Shown here piece after piece: positions 1-1,025 of a DNA stretch of 17,466 nt. Within the stretch, counting starts at the first letter, position 1. Each line of letters opens with the position of its first letter. Both the position numbers and the translations under genes were made by a program. The notes beneath the pieces are model-generated. The model made no database searches and had not been told where the DNA came from. It saw only the letters and a list, made by a program, of their open reading frames with translations. Origin of the DNA: an uncultured bacterium. GTDB taxonomy: Bacteria > Patescibacteriota > Minisyncoccia > Phycocordibacterales > PALSA-1337. The DNA lies in assembly GCA_903870235.1 (NCBI GenBank), contig CAIQCA010000024.1, forward strand, positions 1 to 17,466, read 5' to 3'.

Positions 1-161
1 CGCTTGCCCGGATAACCCTCGGCATATTTGTTTGTAAGTTCTGATCCGAGAGCTTCCAAAACATCACTGGAAACAAAATTTTCTGAGGCGATCAGGTTAA
101 CCACCTTCTTCTGGCGTTTTTTCTCCGCCTCGATAAGTTTCTTTATTTGGATATCTTTCAT
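1..161 (-). CDS. glyA: Serine hydroxymethyltransferase, N-terminal part (runs off the left edge)
   Basis: Reverse-strand translation from the ATG at 159-161 gives about 53 residues that contain the SHMT N-terminal signature NLIASENF followed by [11 protein letters not shown]. This matches the start of the PLP-dependent SHMT fold. The enzyme interconverts serine plus THF with glycine plus 5,10-methylene-THF in the cytoplasm and is the usual source of the one-carbon unit used by ThyA, encoded about 1 kb away on the other strand. There is no clear Shine-Dalgarno before the ATG. An extended -10 (TGCTACAAT on the minus strand, 207-215) lies about 40 nt upstream. The catalytic lysine region is outside the window, so intactness cannot be judged. 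Confidence 0.92.
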
Positions 162-206: not shown

Positions 207-215
207 ATTGTAGCA
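207..215 (-). promoter_or_regulatory. Probable glyA promoter (extended -10)
   Basis: The minus strand reads TGCTACAAT, an extended -10 element (TGn plus TACAAT). A start about 7 nt downstream would give a leader of roughly 40 nt before the glyA ATG. The -35 is weak: TTTGCA is present but at only 15-nt spacing. If real, glyA does not depend on readthrough from the RNA gene upstream. Confidence 0.45.
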
Positions 216-233
216 TGAAAATTTATGTGCAAA

Positions 234-245
234 TTTGTATACAAA
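234..245. repeat. Perfect 12-bp palindrome TTTGTATACAAA
   Basis: A perfect palindrome between the RNA gene's terminator and the glyA promoter. Its core, TTTGTATACA followed by ATTTG on the minus strand, recurs in the promoter spacer of the cytidylyltransferase gene (4380-4395). A related TGTATACTATTTG covers the -10 of the structured RNA (near 659-671). It could be an operator, but may simply be AT-rich promoter sequence. Confidence 0.35.
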
Positions 246-268
246 AAAGCCGGTGGCTCGTCAACCGG
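243..268 (-). terminator. Rho-independent terminator of the structured RNA
   Basis: On the minus strand CCGGT (264-268) pairs with ACCGG (250-254) around a 9-nt loop, and the second arm is followed by C and six T (243-249). The stem is only 5 bp but GC-rich. Both arms overlap the 3' strands of the long-range helices of the same RNA, so the two folds exclude each other. Confidence 0.6.
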
Positions 269-658
269 GTAAGTTAGGACGAGACACCGACTAGTGAGAA
301 GACACTGGTGATGAATGCAGAAGACACCAATATCCCTCGAAAATGTGGGAGGGGTTGAGCGCTAATCGGTGCGAACAGACGACGTAGCTGCAGACTGACG
401 CCGCAAGCACTTTGTTGCTGAACCCCACTCCCCACTGGCTGACAATGAATACGATTGGTGGGCATCGACCTATGCACCGCAGCTAAGTATCAGTTAGCCA
501 TCTCTAGTGCTGTTTCTACGCGCCATAACAGTTTTCATCTCAGCAGGAATCGTTACGATTCCATTTGTGTTTGTTGTTCCTATATCCCCAGGAACCCGGT
601 ACACCTCCACATGTCATGACTCAGGCGATTTGATCTTCCTCGAGCCATGCTACTTCTA
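243..658 (-). ncRNA. Unidentified structured RNA of about 410 nt
   Basis: No plausible protein gene lies in 162-737. On the minus strand a promoter (665-692) and a terminator (243-268) bracket about 410 nt that can fold extensively. A closing helix pairs 641-647 with 254-260 (7 bp, perfect). A second pairs 594-600 with 264-270 (7 bp, perfect). Internal hairpins are 576-581/590-595, 546-552/556-562 (7 bp, 3-nt loop), 510-514/527-531, 482-486/494-498, 457-465/472-478 (bulged) and 285-296/303-310. A long stem pairs 345-356 with 421-435 (12 bp with a 3-nt bulge, extendable by 3 bp at 358-360/417-419). The one non-Watson-Crick pair in that stem is G-U if the minus strand is transcribed but A-C for the plus strand, which supports the minus strand. 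I tested it by eye against RNase P RNA (GAGGAAAGTCC and ACAGAA motifs), tmRNA (tag ending ALAA, T-arm, CCA) and SRP RNA; none fits. Function unknown. Confidence 0.6.
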
Positions 659-664
659 GCAAAT

Positions 665-692
665 AGTATACACGCGGGATATTTGATTGCAA
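665..692 (-). promoter_or_regulatory. Promoter of the structured RNA
   Basis: Minus strand: TTGCAA (687-692), 16-nt spacer, TATACT (665-670). Predicted start near 658, just before GAAGTAGC. It sits directly downstream of the terminator of the 738-1025 gene, as expected for an independent transcription unit. Confidence 0.6.
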
Positions 693-698
693 GAGTTT

Positions 699-726
699 AT
701 AAAAAATAGCCCGAAACCCTCGAGCT
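699..726 (-). terminator. Rho-independent terminator of the 738-1025 gene
   Basis: Minus-strand stem AGCTCGA (720-726) with TCGGGCT (708-714), loop GGGTT, then A and six T (701-706). It begins 11 nt after the stop codon of the small gene. Confidence 0.8.
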
Positions 727-737
727 ACTTAACATCA

Positions 738-1025
738 CTAGTCTTTGGGTTCAGGACCCAATGAACCTTCAGGCAAAATTGTCACAAGTGTTTTTCGTTT
801 TGAATCGTAAACGACCGGAAACCAACGGCCGCTGTACTTCACAAACCAACGGGTAATGCGATTGCTTTGACGGTCGACAAACCGTGAATCCTTGGCTTTA
901 CCCGGGCCACGATCGCGAATCGGGTTTGCTATCTCTTGATAGCTCCTCCGGTTCAATTCGATACCATATCTTTGCAACATCCTGGTCTTAGTATGCATTC
1001 TTTGGCACTTGGCTTTGCTTAGCAT
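738..1025 (-). CDS. Small hypothetical protein (95 aa)
   Basis: A 95-residue basic protein with no membrane segment. Residues about 18-30 (LQRYGIELNRRSY) look helical. Residues about 50-85 (RQSNRITRWFVKY...RWFPVVYDSKRKTLVTILPE) look like a compact antiparallel beta unit. From memory this pattern, a YGI helix followed by QSNR and VVYD-KRK-LVT-LP, resembles small uncharacterised proteins common in phages and mobile regions, but I cannot name a family. The ATG at 1025 is preceded by AAGGAAAATAGGTT, giving a usable AGG/AAGGA Shine-Dalgarno. A good promoter (1091-1118) and a terminator (699-726) bracket it, so it is a real monocistronic gene. Function unknown. Confidence 0.75.
   Translation of the reverse strand: MLSKAKCQRMHTKTRMLQRYGIELNRRSYQEIANPIRDRGPGKAKDSRFVDRQSNRITRWFVKYSGRWFPVVYDSKRKTLVTILPEGSLGPEPKD

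Follow-up and report, generated by a model that had tools for sequence, protein, structure and literature searches.

A candidate structured noncoding RNA gene upstream of glyA in relatives of Candidatus Taylorbacteria

The window, by which we mean the whole stretch of 17,466 nucleotides that was analysed, comes from a genome whose genus is kin of Candidatus Taylorbacteria. Close to its beginning, between an open reading frame of 95 amino acids and glyA, lies a region (659-243, minus strand) that we propose as an RNA gene. Other genes found nearby by means of Pfam include thyA, those for a HIT protein and a deaminase, cytidylyltransferase-like and DHFR-like genes, and an IS200-type transposase. 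The features relevant to the following paragraphs, together with the evidence for each of them, are collected in Table 1.

Table 1. Features of the window that bear on the candidate RNA gene.
Feature	Positions	Strand	Basis
Candidate structured RNA gene, about 417 nt	243..659	-	promoter, terminator, syntenic units, domain order
Sigma-70-like promoter, TTGCAA-16-TATACT	665..692	-	chance level taken alone
Terminator of the 95-aa ORF: stem of 7 bp, one of them T-G, a loop of 5 nt and six T	701..726	-	direct sequence reading
95-aa ORF with its own terminator, adjacent to the RNA on its upstream side; no Pfam family	738..1025	-	
glyA (serine hydroxymethyltransferase), 5' portion, truncated at the edge of the window	1..161	-	PF00464, E = 1.2e-19
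Extended -10 TGCTACAAT, proposed separate glyA promoter	207..215	-	genus pattern TGNTANNAT
Hairpin H1, 8-bp outer stem	615..649	-	minimum free energy fold and pair probabilities
Hairpin H2	567..604	-	minimum free energy fold and pair probabilities
Hairpin H3, 7 bp	546..562	-	minimum free energy fold and pair probabilities; also picked up as terminator-like on the plus strand
Arm H4, long and imperfect (107 nt), with 38 pairs and a single hairpin loop	438..544	-	predicted fold
Two-part arm (core module), GTGGG-[GAGT]-GGGGTT ... AACCCC-[T]-CCCAC	345..435	-	fold and module statistics
ATTTTC, unpaired, immediately 3' to the core module (NATTTY in the family consensus)	339..344	-	fold and module descriptor
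Hairpin H6, 14 pairs	296..338	-	predicted fold
Intrinsic terminator, 14-bp stem (292-285/255-248 and 283-278/262-257), six T	243..292	-	predicted fold

The predicted RNA would begin at about position 659 and end with the last T of its terminator, at 243. A sequence-only reading of this DNA had seen here a transcription unit that is flanked by two terminators and contains no protein gene, and both statements hold: one terminator lies at the 3' end of the unit and the upstream one at 726-701, whereas the 67-aa open reading frame inside the region belongs to no Pfam family, the longest stop-free stretch measuring 71 codons. The terminator at the 3' end had been given as a GC hairpin followed by six T; the six T are there, but the stem, with 14 bp, is bigger than had been claimed. 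The promoter-like pair TTGCAA-16-TATACT is likewise present, at 692-665, yet such sites occur at chance level, as three promoter-like pairs were found in positions 1-1300 against 2.7 expected. The sequence GCGTG before its -10 is a loose fit to the class GGNG-TANNNT of promoters of the genus, to which we return below.

The minimum free energy fold of the window RNA is a linear chain of seven hairpins, in which the terminator hairpin reaches pair probabilities of about 0.95-0.99. Among the long-range helices proposed earlier, the 12-bp stem 345-356/421-435 was recovered, with pair probabilities of about 0.6 in its outer part and 0.8-0.9 in its inner part, and it is the same as the two-part core module shared with the units of relatives. 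The other two, namely, a 7-bp helix closing the ends (641-647/254-260) and a 7-bp helix nested within it (594-600/264-270), do consist of complementary words, but their pair probability is zero, and together they cost 12 kcal/mol because they are incompatible with the 14-bp terminator hairpin. The two helices, which break the terminator, were rejected on these grounds; a closed overall fold is not supported, and a linear chain of hairpins is the better description of the RNA. When compared with shuffled sequences this fold is stable (z = -2.27, with none of 100 shuffles as stable; z = -2.46 in a second run). Most of the excess stability stems from the 3' end; when the last 60 nt are removed, z rises to -0.96, and the body is not unusually stable.

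A search by nucleotide similarity in related genomes, which the earlier reading had put forward as a check, yielded no homologue. BLAST of the window RNA against 34 genomes of the genus returned the RNA itself and 17 short matches, with no homologue in the other 33 genomes. Eight of the 17 short matches were examined and dropped as chance; six of these eight sit in genes that, judging from their motifs, resemble those for aspartyl-tRNA synthetase and an ABC permease. The window RNA likewise has no detectable sequence similarity to the other proposed family members. A BLAST search for relocated copies of the RNA from another locus, L028, gave two chance matches besides itself; this search was weak, since it left unreported the unit of L045, although the long arms of the two units, when compared directly, agree at 73% of 105 nt, which makes the two homologous. 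No reliable alignment of the core modules was achieved across units.

The comparative evidence comes from the position of the unit rather than from its sequence. glyA was located in 33 of the 34 genomes of the genus, and for 30 of these the upstream sequence was taken to a length of at most 900 nt; ten loci from other genera were added, and then ten further stretches, of which two belong to the genus and eight do not (in L102, no glyA start was obtained). The 33 glyA loci of the genus (L024-L053, L094, L095 and the window) were assigned to classes by reading, with the following results. First, a delimited RNA unit of 238-547 nt is present at 16 loci, window included. Second, two more loci, L030 and L032, are likely to carry a long unit, with unclear boundaries. 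Third, only short promoter-terminator units of less than about 130 nt occur at six loci (L024, L029, L037, L043, L044 and L095). Fourth, nine loci are without a unit (L026, L033, L039, L040, L041, L042, L052, L053 and L094). Two of the loci with short units, L095 (G024) and L043 (G020), have two of them in a row.

A unit was also found at L084 and L088, which belong to other genera of the family, so that the set used henceforth comprises 18 units, namely, that of the window, 15 more of the genus and these two, with L030 and L032 left out. All 18 units, the promoter-RNA-terminator unit of the window among them, lie upstream of glyA and in the same orientation; their 3' ends fall 15-146 nt before the glyA ATG in 17 cases, and 333 nt before it in L048. 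The distribution is patchy, as G027 is without a unit although its near kin G026 has one, and glyA stands without a unit in some near-complete genomes, G018 and G027 among them. At the level of the order, 160 genomes have a glyA match, of which 30 loci were taken and the start located in 27 (that is, without L115, L124 and L132). These 27 loci have mostly short gaps upstream of glyA, with gaps of more than 200 nt in L109, L111, L117, L119, L123 and L125.

In each of the 18 units the fold is more stable than in dinucleotide shuffles, with z from -1.72 to -9.18, and without the last 60 nt z stays negative in 17 of them. They resemble one another in architecture more than in sequence, the common arrangement beginning with small hairpins and, in many units, a long arm, and continuing with a two-part arm, NAUUUY, a hairpin and the terminator. 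The most frequent 5-mers found 0-3 nt after helices are TTTTC (in nine of the 18 units), AATTT and ATTTC (in eight each). In 60 shuffled sets, the best 5-mer count reached nine twice, while the summed helix score of AATTT, 155.5, was equalled by no word.

This arrangement was captured in a descriptor for the shared module, consisting of an outer helix, an asymmetric loop, an inner helix, 0-3 nt and NATTTY. Both the descriptor and its position range were framed after viewing the sequences, that of the window included, so that the figures that follow are optimistic. The two-part helix followed by NATTTY scores at p < 0.05 in 10 of the 18 units, with a Fisher P of 1e-11 when the window is left out, the close kin L025 and L034 being counted as two. 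Score alone gives p = 0.011-0.013 for the module of the window. No NATTTY match exists in L048, which reads AATTTG, and in L088, and the score is not significant in L051, L027, L036, L038, L049 and L050. With regard to position, 10 of the 15 other scored units have their best match at a distance of 83-115 nt from the 3' end, against 2.67 expected (P = 4e-5), a count in which the match of L035 differs from the site picked by eye. In the window, where the two-part arm is followed by AUUUUC, the module is 104 nt from the 3' end, and score and position together give p = 0.001 (3000 shuffles), for a descriptor framed with this very sequence in view. When picked by eye, the module lies at 84-113 nt in 10 of 14 units, with L035 (192 nt), L050 (160 nt), L027 (150 nt) and L084 (122 nt) as outliers, and no core was picked for L038, L049, L051 and L088.

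Five units, namely, those of the window, L025, L028, L045 and L048, are identical in their predicted domain order, which is small hairpins, a long single arm, the core arm, a hairpin and the terminator; the others deviate. Arms of 67-134 nt occupy the place equivalent to H4 in the latter four, and in the predicted fold of L045 core and hairpin are fused.

Searches for known RNAs gave no family for these units. Rfam (Rfam 15) has no match at gathering threshold in the window, and at E<=10 over positions 150-800 there is one chance match, outside the RNA, which is itself matched by nothing. At 16 loci of relatives, two noise matches and nothing meaningful were obtained at E<=3, and at 10 further loci no match was obtained at E<=1; these 26 loci include the other 17 units of the set, and in neither them nor the window did any riboswitch family match in Rfam. 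The earlier statement that the RNA fits none of RNase P, tmRNA and SRP is borne out, as there is no such match at the RNA locus. RNase P RNA was rejected since RF00010 does not match there; its only match in G000 is elsewhere, at C130, with 91.3 bits, below the cut-off of 100. Equally, tmRNA was rejected, with neither RF00023 nor ARAGORN giving a match in the window; it is above the cut-off in 30 of the 34 genomes of the genus, never at the glyA locus, and in G000 there are weak matches only, none on the window contig. For SRP, no model matches the window RNA at E<=10, and none of the 18 units has an SRP-like core word. RF00169 (small SRP RNA) matched 0 of the 34 genomes of the genus; its control misses B. 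subtilis, and the model may therefore overlook large-type SRP RNAs. It may be that the SRP RNA of the genus is of the large type or has diverged.

Promoters of the genus often read TTGACA-N13-GGNG-TANNNT, a pattern with 97 matches in the 34 genomes against 6 in a reversed control (L139-L167). This is a general promoter class rather than one specific to the RNA, as it is also found before protein genes and before 23S-like rRNA sequence. More particular to the units is an exact DnaA box, TTATNCACA, which occurs on either strand in the 67 nt upstream of the promoter in nine of the 18 units, and in six of these nine stands four or five bases before the -35, as read. At 25 other, non-glyA promoters of the genus the exact box was found in none (Fisher P 9e-5), a comparison in which unit and control promoters were not picked by the same rule and the pattern was seen after the fact. 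The window promoter has no exact DnaA box and reads TTTTTATAA four bases before TTGCAA; DnaA-box variation falls on the N of the DnaA consensus. In the genus at large, TGTGNATAA a few bases before a -35-like TTG has 39 matches against 5 in the control (L195-L224). Six of the 39 are at glyA loci, and the box also precedes several other genes; one box lies about 220 nt before a gene whose motif points to a ribonucleotide reductase. We regard the DnaA-box promoters of the RNA units as a lead.

Based on these results, the best reading of the locus is that an independent unit makes a structured noncoding RNA of about 417 nt, which probably acts in trans, and that this is a real, undescribed RNA gene, a conclusion that we hold with moderate confidence. 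The earlier proposal of an undescribed structured RNA gene is supported by the comparative evidence and by the lack of an Rfam match, but not in the closed overall fold that it had been given. The RNA would be transcribed discretely, ending at 243, and the two-part arm with its exposed AUUUUC may be the active element, to which a protein or a partner RNA would bind, while the remaining hairpins would serve as a scaffold that drifts fast. Where a DnaA box stands at the promoter, as in half of the units, expression may follow replication initiation; in the window genome this box is missing or degenerate.

It is also conceivable, if rather unlikely, that the unit is a cis-acting leader or attenuator of glyA, in which case the RNA would sense something, and under some condition transcription would pass its terminator and enter glyA. 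Riboswitches are known to target genes of the kind of glyA (pfl/ZTP), and the constant co-orientation of all 18 units with the gene downstream fits a cis role. Moreover, the two discarded helices would compete with the window terminator, as an antiterminator would; this pairing, however, carries the energetic cost and zero probability given above. There is no conserved aptamer sequence and no match to a riboswitch family, and unit lengths vary from 238 to 547 nt. Furthermore, glyA has a promoter-like -10 of its own. Within 70 nt of the glyA ATG, the extended pattern TGNTANNAT occurs at 13 of the 16 unit-bearing loci of the genus and at eight of the 17 others, that is, at 21 of 33 loci, against a mean of 1.2 in shuffles (maximum 5), and glyA therefore seems to start behind the terminator of the RNA. 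In the window this -10 is 44 nt from the ATG. In nine of the 13 unit loci it is 6-8 nt away, which suggests that the glyA mRNA may be leaderless in many loci of the genus (L024-L053).

To a similar degree improbable, in our judgement, is a drifting, non-functional spacer transcript, whereby promoters and terminators accumulate upstream of glyA and the sequence between them is free to vary. The short units at six genus loci, doubled in L043 and L095, agree with this, as do the nine loci without a unit, the case of G027, the little sequence conservation and the unremarkable stability of the window body. Against it stand the strong fold z-scores of most units, the common module, whose distance from the 3' end is fixed, the domain order shared by five units and the homologous long arms of L028 and L045. 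The close pair L025 and L034 bears on both sides. Columns 54-266 of this pair, which were picked by eye, are 89% identical (183/205); the corresponding figures are 77% in the 3' portion of dut and 84% over 1200 nt of glyA. By this measure the RNA is better conserved in its middle than the adjoining genes are, while the whole unit is only 77% identical. With the consensus fold, which was predicted from both sequences, paired positions change less than unpaired ones (118/122 against 65/83 identical), and the same is seen with the own fold of L025 (121/129 against 62/76, P 0.009). With the own fold of L034 the effect vanishes (120/134 against 63/71, P 1.0), and selection on pairing is therefore not robust. 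Covariation, which the earlier reading had asked for, is sparse in the two pairs of units that could be aligned: between L025 and L034 double compensations affect four of 77 pairs (the terminator holds two of these, a doubtful helix one and the body one), and between L028 and L045 one of 20 pairs is compensated.

A broader idea would be that a clade-specific family of fast-evolving large RNAs, expressed from DnaA-box promoters, links the initiation of replication in Patescibacteria with the metabolism of thymidylate and one-carbon units. The neighbours are thyA, dut- and tmk-like genes and glyA; we consider the idea doubtful and speculative. Lastly, a strongly diverged known RNA, with SRP RNA as the least excluded given that RF00169 finds nothing in the genus and may not see large-type SRP RNAs, is very improbable in view of the searches reported above, the presence of RNase P RNA and tmRNA elsewhere, and near-complete genomes that have no unit at glyA.

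Large structured RNAs repeatedly prove to have unexpected functions. The present case illustrates how an RNA family can escape sequence search, in that what its proposed members have in common is a locus, a domain order and a small 3' module, with almost no shared sequence beyond the closest kin. If real, the RNA would give metatranscriptomic studies of organisms with about 1 Mb of genome something concrete to look for, and would offer a test of whether DnaA controls a noncoding RNA in them.

ZTP (pfl), THF and glycine riboswitches occur upstream of one-carbon genes such as glyA, a position that the window RNA shares. It differs from them in having no conserved aptamer and no Rfam match, and in that the -10 of glyA itself lies behind the RNA. 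A literature search on titles and abstract openings found no description of a large structured RNA from Candidatus Taylorbacteria. Among noncoding RNAs of other bacteria, the raiA motif RNA, or ModT, is conserved and structured (PMC11706538); it has been described from other phyla, and nothing in Rfam matches here. CcnA, a cell-cycle noncoding RNA of Caulobacter (PMC8959179), is from a different phylum and offers a precedent for a cell-cycle-tied RNA that is comparable to the DnaA-box lead in the relatives. Further parallels are the large orphan structured bacterial RNAs OLE, GOLLD and ROOL (PMC12286853). The window RNA differs from these in having no Rfam match and almost no common sequence blocks, and in being tied to one locus; but it resembles them in standing alone, in its length of several hundred nucleotides, in its many stems without a protein frame, and in having neighbours that do not reveal a function.
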